Origin: Lepidurus packardi
Lineage: Eukaryota; Arthropoda; Branchiopoda; Notostraca; Triopsidae
Assembly: GCA_023053545.1 (NCBI GenBank)
Contig: JAKZAN010000001.1
Span: 4,360,565-4,424,564, forward strand
Direction: 5' to 3'
DNA: 64,000 nt
Shown: piece by piece, positions 25,066 through 44,984 of the stretch
Layout of the letters: every line of letters starts with the position of its first letter
Position numbering within the stretch: position 1 is the first letter of the stretch
Position numbers and translations under genes: made by a program
Notes under the pieces: model-generated
The model's database searches: none
What the model was told of the DNA's origin: nothing
What the model saw: the letters and a program-made list of their open reading frames with translations, nothing else

Positions 25066-25173
25066 CTGATAATGACGAAGGTCGATAACGATAATGAACG
25101 ATAAAGAACGACGTTCCAGAAAGAAAGTTCCGGAATACTGGTATCAGAGGTAGTCTAGAATATTGAAATCGAT

Positions 25174-25284
25174 GGGTAGGGGACGAACGGGCCCACCTTG
25201 GCCAAACGGGCCCAGTGCCAAAAGGGCCCATCCATTGACCAAACGGGCCCAGTCAACAGACCAAACGGGCCTGTTGCGACCCAA
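25174..25284 (+). repeat. Left terminal inverted repeat of the 19.4-kb element
   Basis: A run of GGGCCC-bearing units (cgggcccaccttggccaaa, cgggcccagtgccaaa and so on) ending GGGCCTGTTGCGACCC. It matches the complement of 44485-44598 nearly base for base; the inner GGGCCTGTTGCGACCC part matches the complement of 42822-42839 across the nested insertion. Confidence 0.8.
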
Positions 25285-26690
25285 GTTCGATATCTGCCCA
25301 AGTTCGAGCTCGGGCAGCCCAAGTTCGTACTTGGGTAGACACTGAACTTGGGACGCGAGGCATCTGCCCAAGTTCGATGCTTAAAAGTATGAACTTTATA
25401 TTTGACGTGAGACATTTTGCAGAGGCGTGGCATTTTCCAAAAGAAGGGTTTAGCTTTGGGTGTGACTTTATCTACTTGCAAACATGATCCGTTGGAGTCG
25501 CTGTTAATTGTATTTTCTCTCCAGTATAAAGCTTATTAAAATTGTTATTCTTTCTTTATTCAACCCGTGAACAAAAATATAAACAAATGGTATCTCTTTT
25601 AACGGAAAAGATTTAGTGAACTTATGTGAAGTTACTTAACTTAGACAGACACAGATTCATTTTAAATCTATTTTGTATTTATATATTTCATAGAAATCGA
25701 AGGATGCTTAAAACTTCTCATTCGACATCCAAACATAGACCTTCGTTGTGTCAAATCTCCTACTTTCTATTCAAGTTTGTACTTGTGAATGTAACCCTTT
25801 CTTAGTGATTACACCGTTGCGTTTCATGTATTGTTCATGCAGTTAAAATAGTGAATAAAGTGTTAATAAACTTTTTTGTTGTTGTTAAGAAAAGGAGACC
25901 GCGTTGCTCGGTCTCTTTGTATTCGCGTATTACATAAAATCGATACATATGATAGAATAATAAACTTGATGAAATTAATTAACTGGTTTCTTTTTGTTCT
26001 GAAAATGCGATGGAAAAAGTGCTCTCTCTACATAATACTGAACTTGAGCTACCCAGCATAAGTTCGAACTATTGGGTAAACATATAGCTCAAGAATTCCC
26101 CATAAGCGTCATGTTTTGAGAGAGTTTTTATAAGATTTAATAGCACACTTAACCTGTTGATGTAATAAATTAAGTGGTTTATCTTTGTGCTGTGAACATG
26201 CTATGAGAAGGGGCTTTTTCTACACAATACCGAACTCGGGTTCCCAAAAGTTAGAACTCTATCGGTAATAGCCCTATATTGTTCAAGAATTGAGACAATA
26301 TTGTAAAATTTGATTGAATAAAAATCTTGCTTATGATTTTAAAAAGTTTGAGAGACCTTTCGTAAAATTGTATAAAATAATAAGCTTGTTGATGTAATAA
26401 ATTAAGTGGTTTCTCTTTTTGTCGTGAACTAGCTGTGAATAGTCCTTTCTCTACGCAATACTGAACTTGGGCTCCCCAAGTTCGAACTCGGGTAACCCGA
26501 GTTCGAACTCGGGGAGCCCAAGTTCAAGAAATCCCCATAAGCGTCCTATTTTGAGAGAGTTTTTATAAGATTTAATAGCACACTAAACCAGTTGATGTAA
26601 TAAATTAAGTGGTTTCTCTTTTTGTCGTGAACTAGCTGTGAATAGTCCTTTCTCTACGCAATACTGAACTTGGGCTCCCCGAGTTCGTTC
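25285..26690. repeat. Subterminal palindromic repeats and hairpin array (left)
   Basis: From 25285 to 25380 short CCCAAGTTCG words repeat in both orientations. From about 25960 to 26690 an approximately 200-230-bp unit is repeated about four times; its GATGTAATAAATTAAG core is at 26159, 26391 and 26594, with a diverged copy near 25966. Each unit ends in a GAACTTGGGCTCCCC-type hairpin, the best being a 63-nt near-perfect palindrome at 26463-26525 (31-nt arms, one mismatch). Confidence 0.7.
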
Positions 26691-26694
26691 GGTA

Positions 26695-28343
26695 TTGTGT
26701 AGAAAAAGCCCTTTCTCTGCGCAAAACAACAGAACGCAAATCAAACATCTGACCTTCACAGACAGTCGCCAACGTAGCATAGAGAAACTCGACACCGCAA
26801 TGCTAAAATTCATCAAAGAAATGCAAACAAAACGAAACGACGAAAATAGACAAATCAAAATTGAACTGGACGCCATTAACAGTACCTTGAGACACCTAAC
26901 ATTGAGATACCTAACAGACACTAATGAAGGCCATTTCATACGAAGATTCAACCCCCAACTTAATTCCGAGGCAAAAACGGGGAATCCTTAACGGTGGAGG
27001 TGAAGTCTTGCGCTGGCTTTTTGGCACCCTTAGCAGCAAAGATCTAGAAGACATTAACCGAAAATTCAGCAGGATAACAAAGGACAATAGAATGCTGTAT
27101 CATTTAGAAGAACAGGCTACATTACTAAACGGCACGTACCTGCAGGTCCGGAAAAATGTGGACGCTATTTCAAAAATTACGAAAGCAGTGAGTAGCCTTG
27201 CCAGTAGTGTTGAAGACCTCGAAGCTGTGATTGCAGAATTTGGAGATTTTTATGCGTTTACGTGGAATTTTGCTCGAAAATTGGACAACGCTTATCATAC
27301 CCTTGGTACCATTATACTTTGGTTACACCAAAACGTTAATAACATGAACACGGGCTTGTCAACAATAGCGTCAGGACGACTTTCACCAAACATAATTCCT
27401 CCAACAGAGCTATGGCAAATTCTTCAAGAAGTAAGCCGCTACCTATCCCGCAACTGGGTCGTAACAAAGGCGGCAGAACCAGGGAACATGTGGACCCATT
27501 ATCAGGAATTCCGGGTGCGTTCAGCAGCAACACTCCAAGGCACACTGAAAATCTTCGTGGACATACCACTACAAGATTTAAGTACTACACTTGATCTTTA
27601 TCAACTAATAGCTCTACCGACTTTTTTTACCTGGAGGGAATTTCTCAGTTGTCTATGAGACACAATACGATTATCTCGGCTTAACAAGCGACAGACAGTC
27701 GTATGTTGAATTTACTTCCTCAGAATTGGCAGAAACTTGTACAACAGGATCAGCGAAGATTTGCTCCACCAGTAAAGCCCTCACGCGTGGCATCCATGGG
27801 CGCTCTTGCTTGTATGCTGCGTTCTTTAATGATACTGTCTTGATTGCGGAATTGTGCAAAAAGACAGTCCGAATAGACGGCAGGCCATTGTGTCATTACC
27901 TTGGGAAAAACAAATGGATCTATTCAATACCTCAACCAATGCAACTTACAATATCTTGCCCAGAAGAACGACGTCCAGAAGCCTACAGCAAGAGTTCCAG
28001 TGTCCAGCTAAATGATGTGGGCATCTTAGAACTACCGGATGGCTGCTCAGCTCACTCCGGGTGGTGGACCTTTCCGGCAAACTTGGAAAAACTTAATAAT
28101 TATACAATCCACACCAGCACTATAGACGTAAAAAATATCTTTTCCGATTTAGATTTTAACTTACCATATCCTGTTGTGCAACTCCCAAAACCAAATCATC
28201 AAGGATTAACGCAAATTACCAAAGACATTTTGGAAGACCTACAGAAAAAAAGTACATTAGACCCAAATTGGGAAATCAGATACAAGTTGTTCGAAAAAGC
28301 AGTTCAAGATTCAAAACCTATTTTTAACAAGACGACAGGATGA
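26695..28343 (+). pseudogene. F-type (errantivirus/baculovirus-like) envelope fusion protein remnant
   Basis: A captured membrane-fusion glycoprotein gene of the family found in insect gypsy/errantiviruses and baculoviruses. Visible features: an N-terminal segment with no signal peptide, a furin-type RQKR site near 26970-26982 followed by a glycine-rich fusion-peptide-like stretch, long heptad-like helices (about 27040-27330), a Cys-containing domain (27725-28080) and a helical stalk. The reading frame changes near 26950 and again at a T7 run near 27622-27630. The frame stops at 28341-28343 before any membrane anchor or cytoplasmic tail. With no signal peptide, no anchor and two frame breaks it cannot make a working envelope. 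No gag or pol lies beside it. Confidence 0.7.
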
Positions 28344-29107
28344 ACTGTCGAATAAGCTGTGCCAGGGAGTCCGTGTGAGTTGTGGATGACGTGGTGTTCT
28401 GTGGTTCTGGTAGATGGCTGTGTAGTTGAATGACGGTGGTCAAGCGTGTGTTGATGTGTGTTATTATATGTTAAGAAAATCGACACTGGTTTTGATCTGT
28501 TGTAAAAGTGTATAATTAGCTGTTTGGTAATTATTCTGTGTTGTTTTGTTTGGTAAGTTTTATTTGTTTCTGCGTAGTTTTGGTAATTTGTTTTTGTGGG
28601 TATGAATGTTAGTGTGTCATGAGTTTCGTTATGCTTTACTAAGGAGTGTTGTGTTTAGAGAGCTGAGAGTTAAGCGATATTTGTGTATTTATTTGCAAAT
28701 TTGAGTACGACGTCGTTGGCCTTAGGTGGTGTATCTGTTGTCGTTTTTGCCACTTGTCTGTTTAATGTAGTTTCATTGCATTATTTTGAGTATTCGTTTT
28801 TATTGCTTTAGTTTTTTAATTGCTTAGTTTTTTTGTGTGACAATTTTTTTGGCATTTCGTTTTGGAACGCGTCTTGTTGTAAGATAAGAATTGGTATATT
28901 AATAACCTTTTTTTTATTGTAGACACGTTTGGTATATAGTCTTTGTTTTGCGGCTTGTGGAGCTGTTGCGGTTTTACCTGTAAGAATTGCAGTGTTATAA
29001 TTAATAAACGACAGTTTAATTGGAACATTTATATTGAAATCGTCTTGGATACAGGTACATGATTACAGAAATGTCACAAAATAGTGGAGGGGATTAGTAT
29101 GGGTTCT
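28344..29107. other. AT-rich spacer between envelope remnant and RPA-like gene
   Basis: T-rich on the plus strand with no coding signal; it lies just downstream of the minus-strand RPA-like gene and would include its 3' UTR. Confidence 0.4.
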
Positions 29108-30151
29108 TTAAGGGTTTTGGGTAATGTTAACTACTTCTTTTTTTTGTTCATCCACAGTGTATATGATGTCCGTTGCTGTAAGAATCTTAATAACCAAGTC
29201 GGTCGTGTTGTGTGGCGTCAACTCCTGGTTTTCGGCTTTTCTGAAGATATTTTGCAGGAGTTCGCTGTTTATTGAAGCCTCCAGGATGTCGCATTCGTGT
29301 TGAAACCCAAGCGTGGCTTCAATGTTCGGGGGTGTGGTGGCGTTGAGCTGCATCCGTTTGCAACTTCCGCAGTGGAATAGAATTTCGTTGTTGTCCTCCC
29401 ATTCTGTTTTTTTCTTACAGGCCAGGCAAGTTCGGTTAATCTGCACGTTGCAGTGAGCGACTCCGCTGAAGGTTAGTTGTCTGGGTGGTTCCATTGTTGC
29501 TGGTGGTGTGGGTACAGAAAGATTTGTCGCCGATTCTTGGATGCGAGACTGCTGCGTTAGACTTATGTTGTTATAATCCTGATTGTAGACAACATCCGTA
29601 ATGTCATACACTTGGTTCAGGACTAAGTCTATGTTTTGATTTTTCCAGCAGATTAATTTGGCTTCTGAAGTTTCGTCAGCAATGATGACCTCTCTGTACA
29701 TTTGGCCGGTTGCGGTCTTGTGGTCCTCCGTGATTTGCTGAATCTGGACGGTGATCAGGTAACGTTCGTTGGGATATTGCGTGCAGGTTTGAAGCGTTGC
29801 TCGCTGTTGTGGGCGAGAAGCGTACTGAAAGGGTGGACGCGGGATTGCTTCGGTCACTTGCGATGCCTGATTAATTTTGATGACGTCGTATTTTGTCTTC
29901 TTTTTAGGTGTCTGGTGTTCGCTTTGGCTGGTCAGTGATGGGCGGATGGTGATGGGTATTTTTTCGGCGAAAAAACGCTTCATTCGGTTATATGAGCCTG
30001 GGACAAAGGAAATGCATTCCTCGTATTGCGTTGGGGACGTTTGCAGAAAAAATCTGAAGTTCTGGGACTTGGTGCCAAATTTTGAAGGACTCTGATTGTC
30101 ACGGAGCACAGAAATGTCATGGATAAACCCCGTGTTTGCGTTGGAAGCCAT
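29108..30151 (-). CDS. RPA-like single-strand DNA-binding protein of the Helentron
   Basis: A 347-residue single-exon protein resembling the large subunit of replication protein A as carried by Helitrons. An OB-fold-like region spans about 125-205 (RYLITVQIQQI ... AKLICWKNQNIDLVLNQVYDI), followed by a four-Cys zinc ribbon (CLAC at 242-245, CGSC at 261-264) and a short C-terminal fold (about 275-345). The start ATG at 30149-30151 is followed by MASNANTGFI. It lies on the same strand as, and 3.0 kb downstream of, the Rep-helicase gene, fitting a role in protecting single-stranded intermediates. Assignment rests on fold-level pattern and context; a host-derived OB-fold protein is the alternative. 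Confidence 0.65.
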   Translation of the reverse strand: MASNANTGFIHDISVLRDNQSPSKFGTKSQNFRFFLQTSPTQYEECISFVPGSYNRMKRFFAEKIPITIRPSLTSQSEHQTPKKKTKYDVIKINQASQVTEAIPRPPFQYASRPQQRATLQTCTQYPNERYLITVQIQQITEDHKTATGQMYREVIIADETSEAKLICWKNQNIDLVLNQVYDITDVVYNQDYNNISLTQQSRIQESATNLSVPTPPATMEPPRQLTFSGVAHCNVQINRTCLACKKKTEWEDNNEILFHCGSCKRMQLNATTPPNIEATLGFQHECDILEASINSELLQNIFRKAENQELTPHNTTDLVIKILTATDIIYTVDEQKKEVVNITQNP

Positions 30152-33100
30152 GGATTGATCTCTATAAAAGTTCGATACATTATTTTTTAAGAAAAGTAAA
30201 TGTTTTTTTTTAAAGTACTTTTTTTAGAGTGAATGGTTACTTACTTTTTTCAGTGTGCCTTATAGTAGTAGGGTGCTGTTTCGAAGGTACTGTATGCGAA
30301 TTGTGACTGGACTGTTCTTGGTTGTTCCTTGTCAGGTCTTTTATACTCGGATTGGATCGTAGAGTTGAGGTCTGGAAGAATAGATTCATCCTAAAGTCAG
30401 GTCCGGTCAAAAGTTCAGGTCAGTCATTAGGGAAAAAGATTCAGTCAATAATCAGGTCGTTCTCTCCTCCCTTTGTTAACGAAAAGGGTGAATTTGCAAA
30501 GAAAAAAGTTCCAAAGGGTACAACCAGTTAATGAGAGTCATGTAAAATTTTCATCCTTAGTTCGAGTGTCAAAGCACGCTCTGAAATTTCATTAGTTTGG
30601 TAGGATGGTCACGTTCTTTTGCGTACCATGTCTTGCACTTTCCACTATTAGCGGCCTAAAAGTGTTCTTTTAGAGTTGTTTCTTTCGTTTTGTTTTTTAA
30701 GGGCGTCATGTTGGGGGATGACGTAGTTAAGAAATGGCACTTGGGTTAAATGTCGACGATCGTTGCTTTGTTTGCAAAAATTTTGGATACAATTTTCCTT
30801 AATCGATGCTTGGAGTTTTCCATTTTCACCGAAAAAACATAATCTTGCTTTGTAAGTGAGTAAGATATATGCTTGGTTTTACTTGGATCCATTTGCACTT
30901 TCTGCGGATGATGGTATAGGATTTTTTTCCCCAATAAAACGAATATAGAAACTTTCCCACCTGTAAAAAACCCTGCGTGAAAATAACACAATCCAATGAC
31001 GAGAAAAGACGTAAAAAGTAAAAAAAAGAAGTAAAAGGAAACGAGAAGCTGCCGTTCAAAACTCCCAATCAACTGGAACAGAAAAAAAAAATATGGCATC
31101 TCTTAACGAATATCCTATGCTATAATCAAGGTCCCCTAGTGTGGTTATATAAAAATGGCGGAAATAACAGAAAAAACAACCAAGAAAAGCGTGGATTCAA
31201 ATGTAAAAGAGCAGGTGTCGCTCGATCGCATTGAAACGACAACGTGGAAGTTTGGATATCCGTTATACATATACGTTCGCAGATACGTTCGCTTTCCGTA
31301 GAGGATGAGCGGTAGTAGATGGTTTGTATCTTCTTTGTGGAATTGCGTGAGTACTTTACGACACAGAAAGTGTAGGTAGATGTTGCGCCTTTTTTTTCTA
31401 TGGATAAGATTATGTTTAAATAATTGTTTTCTTGGAGAAGATAGGATTTTGATAGGATAAAAAGCCGGAGAGAGCATGCAAAAATTGGAGTTCGTTAACG
31501 GAGAGTGTGGCATGATACTCTTAACAAAAACTTAGGAAAGCGATTTGATTGGAAAGAAGTTATGTTAAGATTTTACGATGTAGCGCTAAGGGAGTCAAAG
31601 TTAGCATGCATTTTAGTTCGAACAGGATTTATGGAGAGAAATTACTTATCGGTGATAATTGACAGGATATAGTAGTCATTCTTTTGTAAGAGAGAATGAC
31701 GGTCTCAGTTGTAGCTGCTCCAAGTGAGGATGTTGATAATGTTGGACGTTTGTTGATCTTGTTAAGTTGATATAAAATAGCACGTTTGGGTGTTGTAACG
31801 GTTTGTGTTAGCGATGCATGCTTGTAGAACTTGCGTAATGGGAAAGTGCGTAATTAGTCCTAGAGAGAAAGTAAACGTTGATTCTAATTAGAATTAAGAT
31901 TTTCAGGGAGCTCGTAAAAATTTTTCAATAGAAAAGTTCTTAATGATTTTACCATAGTTTTTGTCGATAGTCTTCTCCCGTAGTTTATCAATGCTGGGCT
32001 GGGAGCTTTTCTTCACACTTTTTACATTACGAAGGAAAGTGATTTTTTTTCTCAGTTCAGCAAGTTATCTACGGTTTTCATATTTGACAGAAATATAAGC
32101 ATCGCGTATGAGAAAGAAGCGGACTTGGAGTGGTGAATGTTGATAAACTAGAAATATTCCAGTTGTCCTAAATTGTTTGTGTTCTCTCTGCACTGTTGCA
32201 TTCTGTTGTGAAAGAAAGATAATGAAAAGGAATAGTCTCCTGAAAATGAGTCAATTTGTAAATTTCTTCAGAAAATAGAATTAGAAAGAATAAGAAGTCA
32301 TATATACTTACTTGTATTTATTGCAGTTTTCCAACTGCAGTAGGGTCCGGTTAAAAAGTCTTGAAATTTTTAGCGAAATGCCATTGTTGGAAAATGGGTA
32401 CGAGCGTATAAGTAGCCTATAATTGTTGGGAAGGCGCGAAATGTACTGAATGTAATTGCGGGGTTATTGATTCCTGTGTTTCGAATTTGTATTGTATACT
32501 ATGTCAGGAAGTGTTATGTATGGTATATACAGGGAGCATTTATTGAATGGTATTTGGGCAAACTACGATGAAAAGCATTTCACTTGACAGATTAAATGTC
32601 AATAAGTGTAATACTGTACTGGATAGAAATATTATTATGAATTTAGATATTTTGAGAGATGTTCTCTTGTCGTGTGTTCTTATTTCGTGTTATGTGTACG
32701 TACAGATACGTCACATATTTTTGTGTGGGGACGGCGATGGAGGAGTTTCGAGTTGGGGGGGGGGGGGGGGATTGGTCCTTTTTGTACTGTTTTCTGGTGG
32801 TGGTTAGTTGGAAAAAGAGAGGGTCAGTCAGAAAGAGTTAATAAGAGAAGGTGGAAAGCGATAGTCGGTTGAGTTGGAGCTGAGTTGAGTTGTCAATGTG
32901 CTGGAGAAAGAAGTTAAGCGGCAGTATAGTTATAGCGCCGAGTTATATAGAGGAGTGATTAAGCAACTGTTTATTTGTGGGAATGAAATACAGCTGATCG
33001 TTTATTTTGTTCTAAAACGTTTTCGTGTGCTTGCATAACATTCGTTTACATAAAATATATTTATATTTAAACTTATTATTTTATAAATTAAATTTGTACG

Positions 33101-33160
33101 TCCATGTTTCATCTTCTTATATGATTGATAATGCATGTGTAAGTCCTTGGCAGTTTGAGG
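30152..33160. other. Spacer between RPA-like and Helentron genes
   Basis: No recognised gene. A 47-codon plus-strand ORF starts at 31155 (MAEITEKTTKKSVDS) just after a TATATAAAA box; a 122-residue minus ORF overlaps it (31145-31513). Neither matches a family I know. A G14 run lies near 32755-32770. Confidence 0.35.
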
Positions 33161-36100
33161 TTAAGTATCAGGTAATTGAATGTGAATAATTTTGTGATCT
33201 GAATAGTATGTTTCATACACACCAGTTTTAGGATTGTGTAAGTTAGAGTAAATATGATCCAACGTTGATGAATAGTCGGTTGTATAGGAAGTAATATGCT
33301 GTCTTAGAGTCAGGGGTTTGAGTATGTCGGCAATTTTGGCAGCGTATGTAGTGTGAGTATGCATATTGACATTAAAATCGCCCATAAGTATAATTCTTTC
33401 AAAGGAGCTGTCAACGTCTCGTACGAGTTGCTCCAGTGCGTCGTACAACTTTTCTATATTGTGCCCATGATGTCTATATAATACGTATACTGCTAATCGT
33501 AATTCCTTAACATGATAGGTAGCTACTTCAAGGTATTTGTTGGAACACAGACGAGTAAAAATTCCAGTAAGTTTGGAATAAATAACGATTCCATAAGGTG
33601 AATTACCCTGGTGAGTTGTAGCGAAATCCATACGGTGTAACTGGAAGTCTGGTAAGTTATAGTCGTTGTCTCTATCAGTTGTGCATAAACGAGTTTCACA
33701 CATGGCAAATATAGCGGTCATTGCGATGAAAGGATCACATAGAATGTCGGGAATGTGTTTTCGTAATGAGACGACGTTTAGGAACGCCACGATTTTTGTT
33801 TCAGATAGAACAACAGATCTTACGTCCTCCAGTGTGAGTTTTTGAGGATTGCTTCGGAGACGATCCACTTCATTTTTTATGTCGGAAGACACTTTAATAC
33901 CGGATTCATTAAGATCTTCAATGTAAAGGCCATCAAGTCGTTTGGCTCTGCTGATCGCTACGTAATGCATGTTGCATGTTGCGTGAGCCAAGTTAACAAC
34001 CACCTGCTCCATCGTTTGTCCTTGAGCACGATGAATTGTTTTTGAGCTATTAGGTCTTAACGGGTACTGGAGTCGCTCGAATTCTGTTCTAAGGAACGTG
34101 TATCTACAAGTTACAGGGAATACAGGTGTCCATTGTTTTGAAACTGTGCAGTCTTGTTGGTATAATTGTAGATATTTGTCACGGCAATGCTTACCCACAG
34201 AACTGTCTTTAAATTCTACCCAAATGGGAGCCTGTTTCGAACAATGTAATATAGGACACGTGTGCTTAAAATTCGCGTCAACATTGTCTTTACCTAGAGG
34301 TGGTAAATTTTGTGGTAATCTTCTAATTGTACATTCGGATCCATTCGCCATACCATCACTAACGTCAGAGTTAATATTATACTCAAAAGGCAAATCAATT
34401 GCTATGAATAAATAACGAATACTGTTACTACTAGTAGTTTTATTAGGTAACTTCTTTAATAAAGAATTTGTATCGATACCCTTACAGCCTTTTATGGGCA
34501 TATCATTACTAACTATTAAAATTTTATCATTTTGCGCATTTTCCCATTCTTTTTGGTTGTAGCAGTCAACGTCGTTATTTCGGTAACTAATCCGTTGTAT
34601 ATGTGGAGGGGGCTTCGGAGAAATTCGGCTACGCAATAAGGAAGTATCTTCCTTTGTATGTTTTCCTTCACGTAGACGGTTCAGTAGCTCGGCGAACTTT
34701 AAGTCTTCTTTTTGTCGCATAATTTGTTGTAGTTCATAAATTTTAAAGTTGTCTATCCACAGATGTTGGGCTAAGCAACGTGCCCCTGTATTTGAATATT
34801 TGAAAATAGGCTGGGCCTTTGTAGGTGGTAGCTGAAAGAGATCACCGACACATAATATTGATTTGCCTCCAAATATTCGGGAACAGCCAAATATTTCTTT
34901 CAAACGGAAATCAATATAATAAAGCATATTTATTCCAACCATGGAAACTTCGTCTATTATAAAAAGCTGTACGTCACGGAATAATATGGCTAATTGGGAG
35001 CGAACTTGTGAATTTAGGGACAAAAAAGAATTGTTAGCATCAAACATTTTGCCAGCTGGAATATGAAACGTGCTGTGTATTGTTGATCCGCCTACACTGA
35101 ATGCTGCTTTGCCTGTGTAAGCTACTATTACAACTTTCTTTGTATCAGGATTCGAGTTAGGAGCCTTATTATAGTACCGTGTTAAGCACGCGTTAATAGC
35201 TCGAACAACCACACTTTTTCCAGTCCCCGCTCCACCGCTTAGGTATCTGCAATAGCTTCCAGTTTTTGTTTTATGCATAAATAACAGATCTAAAACAAAT
35301 AATCGTTGTTCTACATTAAGACTACGCATTAAACTGTAATACTCTTCGTCTTGTAATCCGTAATGTTCTATTACCCTTACTGCCTTCCCTAGTCCCGCAT
35401 CATCAACGCTGCAAGTCGGTAAGTCTCTTCCTATATCTGGAATTGGCATACAGTTATACTCGGGATCGTACATTTGATTAGGGGCATTTTCTTGCTCTTG
35501 CGTTACTTCTTCGTCTTCCGAGTCTATATGGCTGAAATAGTTACGATCAAAAAACTCGTGGAGAGGTTTCTCTAAAATATCGTCAACAGTAGAACTGTAA
35601 GGTTCATAGATGTCGCGCTCTTTTAGTACACGACGGAACACGTTATTCTGAAAATACTTCGCTTCGTAGGTTTTTTGGTCTTTCAGTTCTTTGTGGTCTC
35701 GCCATGGCCAATATAACATCAGTTTCGTGTGGTAATATTTCTCGGGGTTACCCTCACGACGATAATTCATAAAGCGTAGGATGCGTTGTTTCGTTCTAAC
35801 TGTGTATTGCGAGTTTTTGTCAGATTTCTCGCAATTTTTTGAATAGTCTTCGAATTCATTATCACTTGTCATATCATCTGAAAATTCAGCCTGTTCTAGA
35901 CAATAACCGTCATTACCGATCACAGGCGAATAATTTTTTACATATGCATGTGTGTATTTAGTTAAATATTCTGCCAAGCTAATATCACTGAGGTGTTCAG
36001 GTCTCCTAGAATATCTGTCGAAGAAGTTTTCACTAATTACGTTTTCATTATCATCGTTCATCTTCTCTATAACTGCGAAAGGTTTTGTGAGTACGACTCT

Positions 36101-39100
36101 TTCCTCAGGTTCGCACGTATTTACAAAGATGACAGATCTGCTAAACTTTCGCAGCGGTAATTGTAGAATTAAGAAAACAGCTTCTTGTACACCTACTTCT
36201 GATGAGTTCAGAAATTTATTGCCCAACATCCTGAATTTTTCTCTGATACTAAAATTGCCGTCGCGTACCTCTTGCACTACGTTACGAAGAGTCTCACTCA
36301 TTCCTCTCTGAGACTTGGTCATGTAGCTCGCAATATAGGAGGCAGCAGCGTAAGCATCGTCAACGTACTGTATATCCATATTCGCATTCCAAAACAGGAG
36401 AAGTAATGGATTAAAAGCATTTATCATACATTCATTGGGGGCACGCTTCAGAAATAGTGTTTTCTTTGGAATACGTGATCGTAAAGCACCAACATAGGTT
36501 TCTAAATTAAATCCGCATTTGCTTAAAAATTCGGAGAAAGTGGTTAAGTTTTCACTGGGTAGTTTCATGATTTCTTCTACTTTTTTCCATGCAACTCTGT
36601 ATTGCTGTAACTTAACTTTCGGCTCTGCAGAATCCAATGGCTTTAAAATCATTGTATATGGCAGTGGAGGTTTCGGAAATCCAAAGCGACATTTGTTATT
36701 TTTACCTTTTCCTTTACATGTAAAGGAATGCTTGTGTTTCTGTACTTCTTTTGCTATAGATGCTGAAGCGCCAGATAATTCGCACGTGACGTAGCAATCA
36801 ACAAAACGGATTAAGCTTTCCTCGTACGACAATTCGTCTTGAAAATCAGTGGGGCACGGCTGATTATGACACCACACGAACATATGTATGTGAGGAGACC
36901 CGCGCTGTTGAAATTCCACGCGAATTGCATAATCTTTAAGTTTACCGACTGGTTCCGTAGAGTTTCGTAAAAATTGTAATAGTATATCTACACGGTAGTT
37001 AAAATACCTAGCACAGGTAACACTGTCTTTCAATAAACGACACTTATCCAACCAAGTTAACGAGAGAAGCTCTTCCTTCGTATAAGAACGACCATCAACT
37101 GTTCTTCCTAATATGCGTAAGAGTTCTAACCATCTAGTTTCAGCGGCTGAAAAGCTGAGAAAAAAAGCCGGTGGGCCAACTTGACGTATCATGGCAAATA
37201 AATCATGACACATACGCTGGTAATAGGGAGGTGATCCACGGACGCATCTTAAGAAATTAAAACCTCCATCGAATTGTAGTGAGTGCAAAATTTCTGGATT
37301 TTTAAACATTTTAGCATTAAATGTGGTACCCGGTTTTCTATCCTTTCCTTTGACAATACGTGTTGCGAAACGCATAGTGTCCGCTATCTTTTTAATCTGT
37401 ATCTTCTTGAGTTTGAAGAAAATATTAACCTCGTCTTGAGCAACACGACGGTCAACATTCTGTAACTCGGCCTTGCAAAGAGAACTATAGGAGACCGGTC
37501 GACAACGATAACGGCGCCCTTGTAATGCAATATTGCAATCAATATTATCCAACGATGCTAGTCTAGAGTCTTTCTTAACATACACGGGCCTGGCATATCC
37601 GCAGAAAATATGCGGAAACCCCAGCTCTTCACAGTATTTATCAGTAAGCACACCGAATGGTCTTTTGTTTTCTCCGGGTGCTATGGAATGAATTACATCG
37701 TCACCCTCACCGTGAAGAAAGTTTTCATTTAGTAATACAGTATCCATGTTTACTCTAGCAATGTCTTCAGAATCCTCTTGGTCACTACTACCGTCACACA
37801 ATTCGTTTTGTGATAACGTAGTGTTCTTATCATCTTCATGTTGCACTGATCTACCGTCAATTACGCATTCTTCCGCACTTATGTGCGGCAATTCTTCTTC
37901 CGCTACAAACTGCCAGTTTTCTGCCAAAGAAATACCATGTTCAATAAATAATGGGCGTCTTACCAACAACTCTGCTGCGTAACGAACTAGATTTGGACGT
38001 ACAGTTTCCACAAATTCAGGGCGAGTATATTCTAGTTTTCTTTTTAGAGCAACTTTTATTGTCTCGAAGTCACGAAACGTGCGAGGTAATTCGGTTATAG
38101 TTTCGTCTATGTCATGAGGTATATTAATTACATTTCCCTTCAGTTTCGATTGCCCACCCTGGCGTTGTGGCTGCAATTTTAAGAACATGAGACGGGGAGA
38201 CACTAGCCTTCTTTCCATATCATTTAAAACTGTAAGCTCGTCCGGTCTTTCCGGGAAAGAAACTTGGTTTAATACAGATACTGGAGGTACTTCGCCTTTT
38301 TTTATATACTTATAACAAGTTCTGCAAACATATTGTTTATATACCGAAGTGAAACATTTTTCAAATAAATTTCTTGCACGATGACCTTCCTTGCCAGTTA
38401 ACGGTTCTACGTTTTTCCGCAACATTTCTACTGTACATAAAGTGCGTCTAAAAAATAGCTGACAGCAACAACCACAAACAAAATCGGCTCCCTCAGCAAG
38501 TAAATTTTTCAGTTTTCGCATGACTTTATCTACGGATTCAGTTTTAGTCTCTGTTGTCGTGCAAGTTTCTGTCGCGCGACTGTCTATTGAAACCGTATCG
38601 AAACATTTTAGTGTATTGTGGTAGTCAAGATCCTTCCGAGTACGGTCAATGGTTCTTTGATTTCTATGACAAAAGACCTCAGGGTGCCCTTCATGCGAAC
38701 AACTACATATGATTTCATTAGAAAAGCAACTGAGGCATCCCCTTTTAGCGTCAACAATACAATCCAGTGCTAGGAAACAACAGTTTTCGATTCTGCAGGG
38801 AGTCACAGCTAAAACTAGTGAATATATCGTAAATTCATTCGAATCGTTCCATCCTATGAAACATTCATGTATTATACTCGGAAATTCAGCTACTGTACTG
38901 TTCCTAATTACGGCACACCTATCGTACGACGTGCAATAAGATCCACAACTACGCGTGCTATTGTGACTACAAAATATGCTTAAAACGTTATCTTCTGTTC
39001 TGCAGACGGCAATGCAATAACTCCTATATTGTATAACGAAATAAGTACCCTCGCGCAACGAAAGACTGAAATAGGTACTAAATTGTGAAGGCGAAACAGT

Positions 39101-41128
39101 TGTGCACAATACCTTTGAGAAATACGTGTAAGACAATCCGATGTTAGGAATGCAAAATTTACTAGGAAAGTTGTCAACAGATATCCGAACATTGTTATTA
39201 GCAAATAAGTTGTATACAATTATGCCTACTTTTCGGATATTTCCAATCATGTCTATATCCGCAAGTTCATTGTTATGTAAGCCTCTAGCTGTTGCGTAAC
39301 GCAAGAGCAGGAAAACAATGCTGAGGGGCACAGACTGGTCACATTTTCTAGGAGAATAGAAGTTCTCCGCGTAATCAACACCTTTGCATAAAACCAAATG
39401 TCTGGTAAAATTGTCTCCGCTTTCAAACTGTACGTTACAATCGTTGCACTTTAAATGTGTGACACCGAAAGATAAAAACCGACAATTACGTACATGTTTT
39501 CGAAATACTCGTTCTCGAACAAAGACTACACCGCAACCTTGGCACAATAAATTTTTAGTCTGGCTACCAGAGGAAGAATTACAAGTACTTTCAATATTGT
39601 TTACCATTAAATTCGTAGTTCTCGGGAGCTTAGATTGACCAACACTAAATTCTAGATAACCCTCCTGTCTTGTCTGCTCGCCTTTAGTATTATTCTTGGT
39701 AGTTCGGTTATTCGAACTTTTGATCACCTCTTGTACAGACGGACTAGAGAAAAGAACGGGACACACACACAAATGTCTGCGTAAATTAAATGAAGAAAAT
39801 AACGCCTGGCTGCAGTGTTCACATGTAAACTCTTGCACATTACTGATCACAGGCATTTTGCTGTCAACTATTCCTTTATTGCAATTACGTCTTTGCAAAT
39901 GTCTGTTAAAGTTGTAAACAGAAGAAAAATGCTGATGACATGAAACACAGTCAGTCCTTTTACTAGAATTACCAGCTTTACATAATGCTAAATGTCTGCT
40001 CAAACCACGGCGCGAAAGAAAAGTTCGTTGGCACGTTTCGCAAACAAACTGGTCATGTTCACCTTTTTTCTCAATGACAGGTTTGTGGCGTCCAAATTCT
40101 ACATGTCCTTTTTCTCCTGAAAATGAATGATCAAATGCAGATATGTTTGAATCACCTTTTGAATCGTCAACGATCAGAGCAAACGGCTGTGGTAACGTTT
40201 CTGTGAGATCCTTGGCCAAATTAATGCAGGGAGAAACACCGTTTCTATCTTTCGAACAATCTTCCATTACTTCAAGATACTTTAATGAAACTTCAGAGTT
40301 ATTTTTTTTAGCATGTTTTATTGTTAAACTCTCATCAACTTCGTATTTCCGTTTTCTCAGAATATTCAAATTATTCTTGGTATCAAATTTCGATGTCGAA
40401 ACATCTACTAATTGTGGGTTAATATTAATAGCATTCAGATCAGTCCAATTACCCGATGAGACACGTACATGATTACATGCAACCCGACTGCACTTATCTA
40501 CAGTTGTCAACGTATCATCCGGTCGTGCACCCCGAATTTCATGACAACAAATAGGAACAATATCATACTGTGGATTACCACTGAAACCATACATCCTCCG
40601 TAAATACTCAAGCAGTTCATCAAAAGTAAACTCTAACAGGACGGCAGTACCGCTTGTGCAACGCTGACCAAACTCATCACGCGCATGCGAGTCAAAAACA
40701 AAATATCTTCCACTACGCTCCATGATACTAGTACAAAATGAGCAACTAATAAAAAGCACTCCTACACAGTGTTCCGCAAGCTTCACTGCATCTTCCAAAG
40801 ACCAATGCCAATAACGTGTTGTACATGGCCATATAAACCCAAAAGCATCTTCACCATGCACAAAGGTCTTTAATACACCTAAATCTCCACAACCAACAAA
40901 TCGAGGCAATTCTGAAAAGCTAAAGAATGCATGAGCGTGCTTATACGTACGATAAATCTCGTCTCCAATTGACATTATCTGGTGCATGTCATGCTCAATC
41001 CAATTGGCAGGGAAAACAAAATAACTCCATGCAATAGAAACAAAAGCCATGGGTGTGCATTGTACACCACGACTTTCACTCGTACCAACCGAATCTTGTG
41101 AATATCGAGCCTTGCAGACGAGCCTCAT
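33161..41128 (-). CDS. Helentron polyprotein: protease-like, C2HC fingers, Rep (HUH), SF1 helicase, endonuclease
   Basis: One uninterrupted 2655-residue frame. In order: a cysteine-protease-like domain (about 15-200) with GVQC (Cys24) and FDSH (Asp146, His148), similar to herpesvirus large-tegument N-terminal proteases; five C2HC-type fingers at about 363-383, 394-416, 436-456, 529-549 and 561-581; a second protease-like domain (about 590-780) with Cys596 and His722 but Asp replaced by Cys720; a Cys-rich and DUF6570-like region (about 885-1080); Helitron Rep with HIHMF (1413-1417) and paired tyrosines Tyr1598/Tyr1602; SF1 Pif1-type helicase with GGAGTGKS (1965-1972), FIIDE (2056-2060), GDLFQLPP and AISRAKRL; and a C-terminal APE-like endonuclease (about 2445-2655) with ETRL, GDFNVN, LDHI and SDHK. 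All key residues are present, so the copy looks active. Rolling-circle nicking, unwinding and strand transfer are the expected roles. Confidence 0.9.
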   Translation of the reverse strand: MRLVCKARYSQDSVGTSESRGVQCTPMAFVSIAWSYFVFPANWIEHDMHQIMSIGDEIYRTYKHAHAFFSFSELPRFVGCGDLGVLKTFVHGEDAFGFIWPCTTRYWHWSLEDAVKLAEHCVGVLFISCSFCTSIMERSGRYFVFDSHARDEFGQRCTSGTAVLLEFTFDELLEYLRRMYGFSGNPQYDIVPICCHEIRGARPDDTLTTVDKCSRVACNHVRVSSGNWTDLNAININPQLVDVSTSKFDTKNNLNILRKRKYEVDESLTIKHAKKNNSEVSLKYLEVMEDCSKDRNGVSPCINLAKDLTETLPQPFALIVDDSKGDSNISAFDHSFSGEKGHVEFGRHKPVIEKKGEHDQFVCETCQRTFLSRRGLSRHLALCKAGNSSKRTDCVSCHQHFSSVYNFNRHLQRRNCNKGIVDSKMPVISNVQEFTCEHCSQALFSSFNLRRHLCVCPVLFSSPSVQEVIKSSNNRTTKNNTKGEQTRQEGYLEFSVGQSKLPRTTNLMVNNIESTCNSSSGSQTKNLLCQGCGVVFVRERVFRKHVRNCRFLSFGVTHLKCNDCNVQFESGDNFTRHLVLCKGVDYAENFYSPRKCDQSVPLSIVFLLLRYATARGLHNNELADIDMIGNIRKVGIIVYNLFANNNVRISVDNFPSKFCIPNIGLSYTYFSKVLCTTVSPSQFSTYFSLSLREGTYFVIQYRSYCIAVCRTEDNVLSIFCSHNSTRSCGSYCTSYDRCAVIRNSTVAEFPSIIHECFIGWNDSNEFTIYSLVLAVTPCRIENCCFLALDCIVDAKRGCLSCFSNEIICSCSHEGHPEVFCHRNQRTIDRTRKDLDYHNTLKCFDTVSIDSRATETCTTTETKTESVDKVMRKLKNLLAEGADFVCGCCCQLFFRRTLCTVEMLRKNVEPLTGKEGHRARNLFEKCFTSVYKQYVCRTCYKYIKKGEVPPVSVLNQVSFPERPDELTVLNDMERRLVSPRLMFLKLQPQRQGGQSKLKGNVINIPHDIDETITELPRTFRDFETIKVALKRKLEYTRPEFVETVRPNLVRYAAELLVRRPLFIEHGISLAENWQFVAEEELPHISAEECVIDGRSVQHEDDKNTTLSQNELCDGSSDQEDSEDIARVNMDTVLLNENFLHGEGDDVIHSIAPGENKRPFGVLTDKYCEELGFPHIFCGYARPVYVKKDSRLASLDNIDCNIALQGRRYRCRPVSYSSLCKAELQNVDRRVAQDEVNIFFKLKKIQIKKIADTMRFATRIVKGKDRKPGTTFNAKMFKNPEILHSLQFDGGFNFLRCVRGSPPYYQRMCHDLFAMIRQVGPPAFFLSFSAAETRWLELLRILGRTVDGRSYTKEELLSLTWLDKCRLLKDSVTCARYFNYRVDILLQFLRNSTEPVGKLKDYAIRVEFQQRGSPHIHMFVWCHNQPCPTDFQDELSYEESLIRFVDCYVTCELSGASASIAKEVQKHKHSFTCKGKGKNNKCRFGFPKPPLPYTMILKPLDSAEPKVKLQQYRVAWKKVEEIMKLPSENLTTFSEFLSKCGFNLETYVGALRSRIPKKTLFLKRAPNECMINAFNPLLLLFWNANMDIQYVDDAYAAASYIASYMTKSQRGMSETLRNVVQEVRDGNFSIREKFRMLGNKFLNSSEVGVQEAVFLILQLPLRKFSRSVIFVNTCEPEERVVLTKPFAVIEKMNDDNENVISENFFDRYSRRPEHLSDISLAEYLTKYTHAYVKNYSPVIGNDGYCLEQAEFSDDMTSDNEFEDYSKNCEKSDKNSQYTVRTKQRILRFMNYRREGNPEKYYHTKLMLYWPWRDHKELKDQKTYEAKYFQNNVFRRVLKERDIYEPYSSTVDDILEKPLHEFFDRNYFSHIDSEDEEVTQEQENAPNQMYDPEYNCMPIPDIGRDLPTCSVDDAGLGKAVRVIEHYGLQDEEYYSLMRSLNVEQRLFVLDLLFMHKTKTGSYCRYLSGGAGTGKSVVVRAINACLTRYYNKAPNSNPDTKKVVIVAYTGKAAFSVGGSTIHSTFHIPAGKMFDANNSFLSLNSQVRSQLAILFRDVQLFIIDEVSMVGINMLYYIDFRLKEIFGCSRIFGGKSILCVGDLFQLPPTKAQPIFKYSNTGARCLAQHLWIDNFKIYELQQIMRQKEDLKFAELLNRLREGKHTKEDTSLLRSRISPKPPPHIQRISYRNNDVDCYNQKEWENAQNDKILIVSNDMPIKGCKGIDTNSLLKKLPNKTTSSNSIRYLFIAIDLPFEYNINSDVSDGMANGSECTIRRLPQNLPPLGKDNVDANFKHTCPILHCSKQAPIWVEFKDSSVGKHCRDKYLQLYQQDCTVSKQWTPVFPVTCRYTFLRTEFERLQYPLRPNSSKTIHRAQGQTMEQVVVNLAHATCNMHYVAISRAKRLDGLYIEDLNESGIKVSSDIKNEVDRLRSNPQKLTLEDVRSVVLSETKIVAFLNVVSLRKHIPDILCDPFIAMTAIFAMCETRLCTTDRDNDYNLPDFQLHRMDFATTHQGNSPYGIVIYSKLTGIFTRLCSNKYLEVATYHVKELRLAVYVLYRHHGHNIEKLYDALEQLVRDVDSSFERIILMGDFNVNMHTHTTYAAKIADILKPLTLRQHITSYTTDYSSTLDHIYSNLHNPKTGVYETYYSDHKIIHIQLPDT

Positions 41129-41155
41129 ATTTAAATGTTAGAGTTACCAATGAAA

Positions 41156-41716
41156 CGTGCAACTAATAGCAAAATGTAACCAGAAATACAAATAACTATA
41201 CCTTCCAAACGTGCAACTAGACGTAGGCTCTGAAAAGAAAACGACGAAACTGAAAATACAAACAGCAACAGCTAGAAAAACCTAAGTAAACTACGTTATG
41301 AATGCTCTACACAAAATATCAAAAAACACGTACTTGCAATCCAACGATGTATGTATGCAATATTATAATAATAGTCGCTTCCTTCCTACAATTCCAAGTA
41401 TTGCAATTCGGACATGAAATAGTACCGTAAACGTAACAATGAAATTATATCGTTTCGTGCAACTAATAGCAAAATTTAACAAGAAATACAAATAACTATA
41501 CCTTCAAAACGTGCAACTAGACGTAGGCTCTGAAAAGAAAACGACGAAACTGAAAATACAAACAGCAACATTAAGTAAACTACGTTATGAATGCTCTACA
41601 CAAAATATCAAGAAACACGTACTTACAATCCAACGATGTATGTATGCAATATTATAATAGTCGCTTCCTTCCTACAATTCCAATTATTGCAATTCGCACA
41701 TGAAATACCGTAAATC
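41156..41716. repeat. Two tandem ~300-bp repeats in the Helentron promoter region
   Basis: Copies begin CGTGCAACTAATAGCAAAAT at 41156 and at 41456. They differ by small indels (the first has an extra CAGCTAGAAAAAC-type stretch). They lie directly upstream of the Helentron start codon (minus strand) and may carry promoter signals. Confidence 0.75.
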
Positions 41717-41991
41717 TAACAATTTAAAAAACCAGTCATAGACTGCCACAGCTAACAACGTATACCCAACGAATCTTGATCACCACGTAGACGAGATAAA
41801 CTAGCGAGTGTTGTGGGCCAGTTTTCTTCTGACAGATTTCGCCGAGCTACTTCTCTTGCCCGGCGGTAAAATTCGCTTATCTCCCTCCCCCAGGTACCAC
41901 CCCAAAATTCTATAGCCCCTTATGGCGAGAACAGAGCTAGGCTCACCATCCCACCCTCCCAAGCACGGACTAAAGTCGGTACGATACTATA

Positions 41992-42020
41992 AGCTGTCCC
42001 AGTCATAGACTGGCACAGCT
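41992..42020. promoter_or_regulatory. 29-nt hairpin, possible Helentron terminal/subterminal structure
   Basis: AGCTGTCCCAGTC and GACTGGCACAGCT pair around an ATA loop: a 13-bp stem with one mismatch. A partial copy (CCAGTCATAGACTG) lies at 41732-41745, about 270 bp nearer the gene. Helitron-group elements use such hairpins near their ends; whether this is an end here is inference. Confidence 0.5.
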
Positions 42021-42717
42021 AATAATCTGAGTGACGAAATTTCGCATGTCTGTCTGACCCAAAGCTTCTTGACCCAACTTTTACTATACTGTTGGGCTGT
42101 TGTGATTACTGCCGCCACAGTATTTGCCCTCCCTGCCATCATCTATATGTTTTTGAGGCTTAGATGGCTGACAAGAAAACAAATTGAACTACTTGGTCTC
42201 TGGCAAACCTTACTTGATGTTGATGATAAATAAGTAGGGTATAGTGAATTATAAATTCCATCTTGTAATTCAATATTATTATTATAATAACCATACCCGG
42301 ATATCCAACTTCTGCATGCTATACGTTTGAGCTACTGTTATTATATGAGTGAACATTAGTTACCAACAAACTTTTCAAGTACTGTACCCCAAAAACAATA
42401 ATAAAAATAATGATACATACAAACTGAGGAGTGACAAGCACAACTCTACTCTTTAGTGATGAAAGTCGACACAAGTGGCGTAAACTGCAGTTCTAAGTAG
42501 CCCCTCCTACATGCAATGCCTCCAAGTAAAGTAGTCTACACTCCACTGTAAACAAAACTTGTCATGTAAACTTCGAAGATAAATATTTAAATAAGTTGTG
42601 AAATTACTGCCAAGGTAATAATGCCAAATTAAAGATAACTAAAGCAATAAACTGTATTGTTAATTTCACTTGCAAAAACTGTGTAGGTGTGGAGAACTTT
42701 AGTGTCAAATATTGCTA
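42021..42717. other. Gene-free stretch, right part of the 19.4-kb element
   Basis: No ORF or motif recognised; AT-rich. Confidence 0.4.
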
Positions 42718-42822
42718 CCCGAGTTCGAACTTGGGTTACCCGAGTTCGAACTCGGGTAGAGGCTCTACGAGTTCGAACTCGGGTAGAGGCTCTACGAGTT
42801 CGAACTCGGGTAGAGGCTCTAC
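42718..42822. repeat. 27-bp tandem palindromic repeats (right)
   Basis: Three exact 27-bp units start at 42742, 42769 and 42796; each contains the 12-bp palindrome GAGTTCGAACTC followed by GGGTAGAGGCTCTAC. Two diverged copies precede them (from 42719). The same palindrome occurs in the left hairpin array, tying both sides to one element. Confidence 0.85.
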
Positions 42823-42839
42823 TTGGGTCGCAACAGGCC

Positions 42840-44484
42840 CACTATTTTGAAACATATTTTGAAACTATATAACTATACCAAACTACAACTTAAAAAGTGG
42901 GGATTTGCAAAGCAAAATTCTGTAAAACCGATTAAATGGTTTTGACCTAATCAAGATCTAAGATTCGGTATTTATAAATTTTTCAGAAATACAGCAAACA
43001 TTTAAGTTACTCTGATGATAAACACGAAAACAGTAAACCCTTATTGAAACACGCGAAAAAGAGCAAAGGCTTTTTCATTAAATATAGTTTATTCTTTATA
43101 GTTTATTCTGTTACAGATTAGTGTAGAATATAAGTGCAAACGTGAAACATTTTACATTTATAGTAAGAGTAAAGCTGACATCACTAAAGATCGCCATGAG
43201 AAAAGTGAAAAATACGGAAGTACTCTGGTAATAATGAAGAATACGGAAGTACTCCATAGCATGGCAGAAAATTTCCAAACCAGCTATACTGTCGGATTAC
43301 ATAGTCATTACTGTCGCATAGTTATAGGGCAAGACTTCCTCTTCGAGTTGGATTTTGTCTCGACCATTCTACAGAGAAAACAATACAAAGAACGATAAAT
43401 ACAGCAGGTCGATGTGAAAACTCGTACAAAGAAGTATTGCTATAAATATTTAGTATGCTCTTGTACAGTCTTATATAAAGTCCATCCCAATCCAGCTAAC
43501 AGTCGTACTATACTTCAGTCGCCACTTCTTAGACTTAGTTTTTTAATATAGTTTTGGGCAAAACTTCCGCTTCCAGTTGATTTCTTCTGGGCCATTCTAA
43601 GTGGAAAACAATACAAAAAACGATAAATACTTAATTACACTTATGTTACAATACAATAGATATGTTTGCAAATATTTACATGTCGTGTCTTACCCATGTC
43701 GTGTGTTGTTCCCTGGGGTACGAGAAGATTCACCACAGCCAAAACCTGCTTTTACTAATCCTCTAAACTCACCACAACTGTTCTCTAGTGACAATTCCCC
43801 ACACGAAAATTCCCCACAGTTGGCTCCACAGCCAAAACCTGTTTTTACTTTGAATACAAACTTGAATTTGAAAACAAACTACAAATTTGAATACAAATTT
43901 AAATTTGAATACAAACTACAACTCGTTTGAATTTGAACAAAACTACAAGTACAACTTTTAAAACTCGTTTTCAGGATTGCTCACGTTTAATAATAATACA
44001 TTTGAATACAAACTACAACTCGTTTTCACGACGTGTTCACGTTTTGTTTGTGTACAAACTACAACTCCTTTTGTGTTACAAACTAGTACAACTCGTACAA
44101 CTACCTCTACAATTTGACTACAAACTACAATTCGTTTAAATTTGAATACAAACTACAACTCCATTTTCACGATGTGTTCACGTTTTGTTTGTGTACAGCG
44201 AGTCAGGAACGACATCTCTCCCGAAATAATAACAAAGCATCGAAATAATACATCGACATCTCTCCCGAAATAATAACAAAGCTTTAAGGTGGGTTTCCCA
44301 CTATGTCAGTATTCAATGATCATACTGTCGTGAATTTTCGTGTGGGGAATTGTCACTAGAGAAAAGCTGTGGTGAGTTTACAGGATTAGTAAAAACAGGT
44401 TTTGGCTGTGGTGAATCTTCTAGTCCCCGTTCCCTGAGTCCGGAAAACAGCACAACAGGGTGTTTGCAATGTTTCAAAATAGTG
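42840..44484. mobile_element. 1645-bp non-autonomous element nested in the right terminal repeat
   Basis: It begins CACTATTTTGAAACAT and ends with the exact complement. Both flanks are ggcc (42836-42839 and 44485-44488). Removing the segment and one ggcc restores caacaggcccgtttggtctg, exactly as in the left terminal repeat of the host element, so ends and 4-bp duplication are well supported. No transposase ORF is seen inside. Confidence 0.8.
43711..44430. repeat. Foldback with ~95-bp arms inside the nested element
   Basis: The sequence around 43720-43812 (GATTCACCACAGCCAAAACC ... AATTCCCCACACGAAAATTC) recurs as its complement at about 44332-44425. The roughly 520-bp loop is made of diverged AATACAAACTACAACTCGTTT-like tandem repeats (43850-44190). 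Confidence 0.75.
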
Positions 44485-44598
44485 GGCCCGTTTGGTCTGT
44501 TGACTGGGCCCGTTTAGACAATGGATGGGCCCTTTTGGCACTGGGCCCGTTTGGCCAAGGTGGGCCCGTTTGGAACTGGGCCCGTTCGTCCCCTACCC
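44485..44598 (-). repeat. Right terminal inverted repeat of the 19.4-kb element (outer part)
   Basis: Complement of the left terminus with one additional GGGCCC unit (gggcccgtttggaact). It is followed by the target duplicate aaatcgat at 44599. Confidence 0.8.
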
Positions 44599-44660
44599 AA
44601 ATCGATGGAAACGTGAATCGGGACGCACAAAGTAAACACAGGGTAAAACTTGCTTCGAAA

Positions 44661-44984
44661 ATGTCCGAAAGTGCCTCAGGAAGCAGGAGTTCCATGCCGG
44701 AAGATGTGAAAAAAGAATTAGAAACTATCATGTTAGGTAACTCCCTCACAGTAGAAATTCAGAGTAAAGGTTCCACACTAATTGAAGCTGTCGAATCGCC
44801 CCAAGAAGAAGAAGAAGAGGAAGCTGATGTTGACGTTGACGTCGATATGGAAGAAGAAAAGAACAAGAAGTGTGCTACGTTTAGCGAACCGGAACTAGAT
44901 CATAACATGGAAATGAAGATGAGTGGCAGCATGGGCTTCCTGTACAAAACCATGCGTAATTTCCTTTCATTCAACAAGCACTAG
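44661..44984 (+). CDS. Unrecognised acidic protein ORF (107 aa) or PHF14 5' exon
   Basis: Starts MSESASGSRSSMPEDVKKEL, has an acidic middle (EEEEEEADVDVDVDMEEEK) and ends GFLYKTMRNFLSFNKH. No family is recognised. It ends 38 bp before the acceptor of the first clear PHF14 exon. A donor-like TTAG|GTAACT at 44736 would splice in phase to that exon, so the region could instead supply the PHF14 start codon; the two readings exclude each other. The terminal repeat of the 19.4-kb element ends only 62 bp upstream of this ATG. Confidence 0.4.
   Translation: MSESASGSRSSMPEDVKKELETIMLGNSLTVEIQSKGSTLIEAVESPQEEEEEEADVDVDVDMEEEKNKKCATFSEPELDHNMEMKMSGSMGFLYKTMRNFLSFNKH

Follow-up and report, generated by a model that had tools for sequence, protein, structure and literature searches.

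MULE-type transposons duplicate about 8-11 bp of their target on insertion. Among elements with an integrase core, Ginger1 and Ginger2 end in TGTNR and duplicate 4 bp (Bao et al. 2010, PMC2836005), and the Helentrons of mite, Culex and Drosophila encode a Rep-helicase with a C-terminal endonuclease together with an RPA-like second gene (Thomas et al. 2014, PMC4067079). Here we describe a locus in the tadpole shrimp Lepidurus packardi in which elements akin to all of these occur together, within a stretch of 64,000 nucleotides (hereafter the window; G000:C1:4360565-4424564 in the 108.6-Mb, 344-contig genome that was searched). The locus, at positions 25174-44598, had been read in a preliminary description as one 19.4-kb element carrying a Helentron and an envelope relic. 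It almost certainly consists instead of three unrelated elements nested one within another, and the innermost, a Helentron that we call H1, belongs to a family with numerous very short 5′ ends elsewhere in the genome.

Three nested elements at positions 25174-44598

The outermost element, A, is 1,861 bp long without its inserts (25174-25271 and 42836-44598). The middle element, B, sits inside A and comprises 3,869 bp (25272-28327 and 42023-42835), and H1, 13,695 bp on the minus strand (28328-42022), sits inside B; the three lengths sum to the 19,425 bp of the whole locus. The features are as follows, with ATIR denoting an asymmetric terminal inverted repeat and ORF an open reading frame.

25166..25173, no strand: left target duplication of A, AAATCGAT, 8 bp
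25174..25271, plus: left end of A, interrupted by B, from matches to other copies
25268..25271, no strand: left target duplication of B, GGCC, 4 bp
25272..28327, plus: left part of B, end TGTTGCGACCCAAGT, an internally deleted copy (the family's common long form is 12.8 kb)
26924..28327, plus: envelope relic, Baculo_F-like (PF12259), two open pieces, cut at 28327 by H1
28328..42022, minus: H1, 13,695 bp, 5′ end TTAGCTGTGCC at 42022 and 3′ end GTCTTG at 28328, in B at TTA|T
28328..28365, minus: H1 3′ terminus, with 3′ ATIR CTGGCACAGCT, hairpin GACAG..CTGTC, then GTCTTG
29108..30151, minus: 347-aa putative RPA/SSB-like protein, with a central OB-fold and a C4 zinc-like motif seen by eye
33161..41128, minus: 2,655-aa ORF with C2H2-like fingers, DUF6570, Helitron_like_N (HIH, YIASY), PIF1 helicase and C-terminal endonuclease
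41992..42020, minus: H1 5′ hairpin, 5′ ATIR AGCTGTGCCAG and right arm CTGGGACAGCT
42023..42835, plus: right part of B with GAGTTCGAACTC palindromes, ending ACTTGGGTCGCAACA, from B copies elsewhere
42836..44598, plus: right part of A, starting with the second GGCC (42836-42839), from sister-copy comparison
44599..44606, no strand: right target duplication of A, AAATCGAT, 8 bp

The ends, the duplications, a local empty site for each inner insertion and copies of each family elsewhere in the genome are all directly observed. In the window A is broken at GGCC, the left junction reading AAACGGGCC|TGTTGCGACCC and the right junction GGGTCGCAACA|GGCCCACTATTTTG, and three sister copies of A read straight through as AAACGGGCCCACTATTTTG; an element with TGTTGCGACCC ends has therefore inserted between two copies of GGCC. 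The bases flanking H1, 28327 and 42023, are adjacent in other B copies, and the joined flanks CTCAGATTA + TTAAAAATAGG are letter-perfect in two of these (L093 and L041), so that 28328-42022 is an insertion, TTAG...CTTG, with neither loss nor duplication of target bases. A start of H1 at TAG was considered and set aside, since it leaves one spare T relative to the empty site, which TTAG...CTTG fits exactly. Three independent insertions very probably produced this arrangement: a MULE-type A came first, duplicating AAATCGAT, a deletion derivative of the integrase/envelope family B then entered A's left end, duplicating GGCC, and H1 finally entered B at TTA|T by rolling-circle transposition, without duplication.

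Much of what had been reported of the outer ends is borne out. The octamer AAATCGAT is present on both sides, GGGTAGGGGACGAAC begins at 25174 and its reverse complement finishes at 44598, the arms 25186-25271 and 44485-44570 are 98% complementary over 86 nt, and GGGCCC unit arrays are found on both sides. The genome search that had been proposed, with 25174-25284, returned at least 42 matching places (a lower bound, as 40 of 60 candidates were scored), and because other copies share these ends, with duplications of their own, the inverted ends are not a matter of chance. The GAGTTCGAACTC palindromes (26499, 42742, 42769 and 42796) and the envelope relic are likewise present, but they belong to B, nested in A, and not to one large element.

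Among the matches listed, only the window crosses the A/B junction; all others extend no further than base 98 of the 111-base query. A single composite element that moves as a unit on the ends of A with B and the Helentron as cargo is thus extremely improbable: the outer duplication is intact, so the whole could in principle still move from those ends, but the A/B junction is found once among the 42 matches listed, both inner insertions have local empty sites, the fetched B copies occupy other sites and the other H1 copies with fetched flanks lie in different sequence, and we rejected it on the unique junction and the empty sites. The Helentron is no part of the outer element's machinery but an independent insertion in B, itself an insertion, and each of the three families has copies elsewhere; the alternative of HUH machinery working within a terminal-repeat element is not supported. 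The nest is ordinary biology, with transposons of known kinds stacked one in another.

The outer and middle families

Many of the matches to the end of A form inverted pairs, separated by about 1 to 11 kb. In 16 such paired copies other than the window the target duplication is 8 bp (13 copies), 9 bp (one) or lacking (two); a seventeenth pairing, with an outer partial end at C5:9695906 and without a duplication, was set aside from this count. The outer element is thus of cut-and-paste type, as had been supposed from its 8-bp duplication, and it does not belong to an unknown class. Three near-identical 4.7-kb copies (L031, L040 and L041; 99.9-100%) were found, the last of which has a domain of MULE transposases (PF10551, 36.3 bits against a cut-off of 27.6). 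No transposase gene was found in the 1,861 bp of the window copy, in keeping with the preliminary report of no DDE transposase; this copy is non-autonomous and therefore probably mobilised in trans. With MULEs the A family shares the transposase domain (in a sister copy), terminal inverted repeats (TIRs) and the 8-bp duplication, and it differs from them in the GGGCCC unit arrays of its TIRs and in the missing transposase of the window copy.

Other A copies have further structure. A 4.1-kb A element (L034, G000:C5:9695974) lies inside a terminal repeat of another A, with the duplication GACCAAAC; an 11-kb A element (L036/L037) holds a long terminal repeat (LTR) retrotransposon-like insertion with repeats of about 294 bp; and a 6.7-kb A element contains an 876-codon open frame with a C2H2 zinc finger (L035:4443-7070). 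In the window, the ATG (44661) of a 107-aa open frame lies 62 bp beyond the end of A (in window positions 44599-44984) and may belong to a host gene.

The left end of B gave 42 matches in the genome, 21 of them over all 429 bases, window included, and the right end recurs likewise (with a query that lacked the last 4 bases of B). The 4-bp duplications vary in sequence between copies but are identical on the two sides in 16 of the 17 fetched pairs and in the window copy; in one case (L077/L078) the pair was mismatched, and the outer left end L088, which matched, was used in its place. The long form of the family measures about 12.8 kb from coordinates, and its contents, including internal inverted repeats, were read from pieces of three copies. 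One open piece (in L092) matches the rve integrase core (PF00665, 38.6 bits, cut-off 32.6) in a frame that is split over several pieces; the integrase stretch has 11 close DNA matches, source included, and one at 74%, and a CXC match in the long form is below its cut-off. The long form also carries overlapping open pieces of a Baculo_F-like envelope gene (PF12259: 34.9 and 27.2 bits against a cut-off of 24.1). In the window relic the first piece scores 34.7 bits with the same profile and the second 17 bits, below the cut-off. The envelope stretch occurs in full at 17 other places, all between B ends, and in part at some more. The window copy is a deletion derivative, its left part joined to the envelope part at 26687. 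We note in addition that B is a young TIR family, in which copies of 3.6-5.4 kb keep the envelope stretch and the integrase stretch is kept at fewer places (L091-L093).

B resembles Ginger1 and Ginger2 in its TGTNR ends, 4-bp duplication and integrase core. The Ginger TIR is 40-270 bp long and the exact TIR of B 15 bp, however, and Ginger targets are CCGG/CCGT or RTATAY, whereas the duplications of B vary (gatc, gtac, aaat, tata and agga, for example); B also differs in its 12.8-kb long form with internal inverted repeats and in its envelope-like stretch (PMC2836005). Because it fits neither the TIR length nor the family-specific target we call B Ginger-like only. As a TIR element that combines an integrase core with an envelope-like gene, the middle family is of interest in its own right.

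Some observations count against the nest as we have drawn it. Two A copies and one B pair (L067/L068) lack matching duplications. Both the MULE gene and the integrase gene are seen in sister copies only, each in several open pieces, and their activity is presumed from sequence. The enzyme that moves each of A, B and H1 we infer.

The Helentron H1 and its relative H2

The 2,655-aa ORF of H1 contains the motifs HIH, YIASY, GGAGTGKS, GDFN and SDH, which we take to be those of an HUH-type, two-tyrosine Rep protein with a Walker A site and an endonuclease. Profiles PF05970 and PF14214 match, as does the PF03372 endonuclease at residues 2499-2645 (25.8 bits, cut-off 24.5). At the DNA level the ORF (7,968 bp) has ten full-length matches in the genome, window included, all at 100% when rounded; one of these spans 7,969 bases and therefore holds an indel. 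The remaining matches cover only part of the ORF, and a second family, H2, aligns at 71-72%. The nearest Helentron proteins, among 120 of 555 matches, are 36-41% identical over residues 1250-2200. H1 is young and very recently multiplied, and its open frame, defined ends, exact local empty site and nine other full-length ORF matches in DNA make it a good candidate for an animal rolling-circle transposon with recent activity.

The RPA label of the 347-aa protein has no support from Pfam or from sequence matches. In its predicted structure residues ~115-220 match SSB, RPA and other OB-folds (best E 3.9e-5) and the mean pLDDT is 43, and on this low-confidence model the protein may be RPA/SSB-like.

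Hairpins are present at both ends of H1, and the 11-bp ATIRs lie at nt 3 (5′) and 27 nt from the end (3′). A T follows the 3′ end in all 11 of the fetched copies, and the target register reads TTN|T rather than T|T. This build matches that described for Helentrons and Helitron2 (PMC4067079, PMC3627910). Published Helentrons share the Rep-helicase-endonuclease, a palindromic 5′ subterminal repeat, a 3′ palindrome and insertion at TT, and their RPA-like gene may have its counterpart in the 347-aa protein; they are reported with a variable number of Ts at their ends, where here one register, TTAG...CTTG followed by T, fits the ends read, and H1 is set apart by the ten full-length, near-identical DNA matches to its ORF (PMC4067079). 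Helitron2 has the same 11-bp ATIRs in the same positions and the same hairpins, and H1 differs from it in having an endonuclease domain (Bao and Jurka 2013, PMC3627910).

Another A copy (L038/L039) has a member of the H2 family inserted at TTT|T, and five A copies contain an exact match to its joined flanks. An apparent 8-bp overlap at this site had the look of a target duplication, which we discarded; the junction is TTN|T, with no duplication.

Short 5′ ends and their origin

The exact ends of H1 are unequally represented in the genome, with 28 5′ ends (first 23 bases) and 12 3′ ends (last 22 bases); left out of these counts are 14 one-mismatch places that represent an internal repeat 267 bases into long copies, and two 3′ places with two mismatches. 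Half of the 5′ ends are stubs of 33-63 bp in the TTAG register, and the other 14 run for at least 294 bp, the 294-bp copy being cut by an H2 insertion. Identical flanks occur at C4:339078, C8:160449 and C114:30366 of G000, and also for the H1 copies on C8 and C46, on a contig of chromosome size and on small ones, which suggests haplotype duplicates in the assembly. When identical flanks are merged, 10 stubs and 13 long copies remain, such that 10 of 23 independent 5′ ends are stubs. In H2 the first 19 bases are found at 71 exact places, of which 48 were read. Of these, 32 are short, 15 having flanks of their own and 17 belonging to three dispersed-repeat types; the 16 long ones include two that are visible over 103-105 bp only. 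The other 23 were classed as long solely by a companion repeat ~313-323 bp further on. Over both families the stubs measure 33-119 nt, and if they are products of transposition they would, to our knowledge, be among the smallest natural ones.

For tests of the stub ends identical flanks were counted once and the three dispersed-repeat types (17 places) left out, which gives 25 stubs, all of which include the complete 5′ hairpin. Stubs and long copies have the same target: TTNT stands before TAG in 27 of 28 stubs, or in all 25 once the three old types are excluded, and in 18 of 24 long copies, compared with 4% of window positions. A host T follows 23 of the 25 stubs at the longest-match register, and all 25 when the register is allowed to move back by up to 4 bases; with such sliding 21 of 25 stubs end at TTN|T, against a random mean of 5.7 beside T (maximum 14 in 4,000 trials) or 3.8 without the T condition. 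Nine of the 25 end in CTTG, where 0.43 are expected, and all three CTTG sequences in the first 125 nt of H1 and H2 are used as stub ends. TTN|T is thus common to the donor 5′ junction, the donor 3′ junction, the target and most stub ends, which may reflect one nicking preference.

The structure of the 5′ end offers a possible reason. The right arm of the 5′ hairpin, CTGGGACAGCTTAT, has 13 of 14 bases in common with the 3′ terminator arm, CTGGCACAGCTTAT; elsewhere on this strand of H1 (13,695 bp) no sequence is within three mismatches of the terminator arm. With this sole other copy located at the 5′ end, we lean towards the view that H1 carries a copy of its own terminator there, and that transposition starts at this end and often aborts at it, in 10 of the 23 independent 5′ ends. 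Rep would nick at TTN|TTAG and displace the 5′ end first; the displaced hairpin, its right arm mimicking the 3′ terminator, would often be mistaken for the terminator, release would follow at TTN|T after 33-119 nt, and the released stub would integrate at TTN|T as full copies do. From the sequence patterns we infer that the stubs are products of abortive rolling-circle transposition.

Two other origins must be weighed. The better of them, although unlikely, is that tandem 5′ ends arise by self-insertion of Helentrons, as proposed for Helitrons of Fusarium and maize, and that single stubs derive from such tandems. Six of the 25 stubs do run directly into another 5′ end, a 3′ end or stub end with its host T recreates TTN|T, H1 3′ ends followed immediately by an H2 5′ end occur (L117 and L118, with the same flank), and multiple 5′ termini have been published (PMC5148889, PMC3288121). 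Of the remaining 19 stubs, however, 16 lack any adjacent Helentron end within the sequence read, the other three adjoin another stub, and the motif at the stub ends is left unexplained. In Fusarium, FoHeli 5′ pieces of 31, 65, 73 and 85 nt, repeated or in partial copies, were ascribed to self-insertion (PMC5148889), and the multiple 5′ termini of maize Helitrons to self-insertion or nesting (PMC3288121). The Fusarium pieces are short and repeated like ours, but 82% and 96% of the partial FoHeli1 and FoHeli2 copies lie near contig borders, whereas most of our stubs are placed inside contigs of at least 10 Mb and have an end motif in common (PMC5148889).

That the short ends are deletion remnants of once full-length Helentrons is more doubtful still. 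Elements do lose sequence by deletion, and for two long H1 copies there is no nearby 3′ end and the match to the ORF is partial (its first 5,852 bases at C6:7196688 and 4,510 at C3:2118107), but a deletion extending beyond the 3′ end would not be expected to place a host T after nearly every stub or to stop at each of the three CTTG sequences, and it accords poorly with the bimodal lengths of the H1 5′ ends, 33-63 bp or at least 294 bp. Those two copies could be longer premature ends.

Abortive transposition has its own difficulties. At four of the 25 stubs the end departs from TTN|T. No empty site was seen for the single stubs, and a search for one with a dispersed stub type found none. The most used stub end of H2, at 44 nt, is not close behind a strong hairpin, so the hairpin would not always be needed in H2. 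Three Helitron2 families of Chlamydomonas have the opposite bias, with 3′ ends in excess and 5′ ends truncated, where here 5′ ends are in excess and it is the 3′ side that is truncated (PMC3627910).

Experiments with Helraiser support parts of the abortive model. There the 5′ end is essential and the 3′ end dispensable, and with donors lacking the hairpin or the whole 3′ end some insertions ended prematurely at a CTTG adjoining a T (Grabundzija et al. 2016, PMC4778049). Premature CTTG ends next to a host T are thus common to both systems; the Helraiser examples are some insertions from altered donors, and those described here are natural, 33-119 bp long, and account for 14 of 28 H1 5′ ends (PMC4778049). 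Assays that select for an internal marker would presumably miss such short products. In the open-licence PMC literature searched, we met no account of single 5′ stubs as the outcome of aborted transposition, and the passages of PMC5876387 and PMC13286980 contain nothing on stubs. The stub class and the terminator mimic extend known rolling-circle behaviour, with prior hints in Fusarium (PMC5148889) and maize (PMC3288121). If the abortive origin is correct, the stubs would establish that the Helentron reaction runs from 5′ to 3′, and multiple 5′ termini would be explained as abortive starts; the stubs would then be a genomic record of where the reaction stops, bearing on both the polarity and the termination of eukaryotic rolling-circle transposition.

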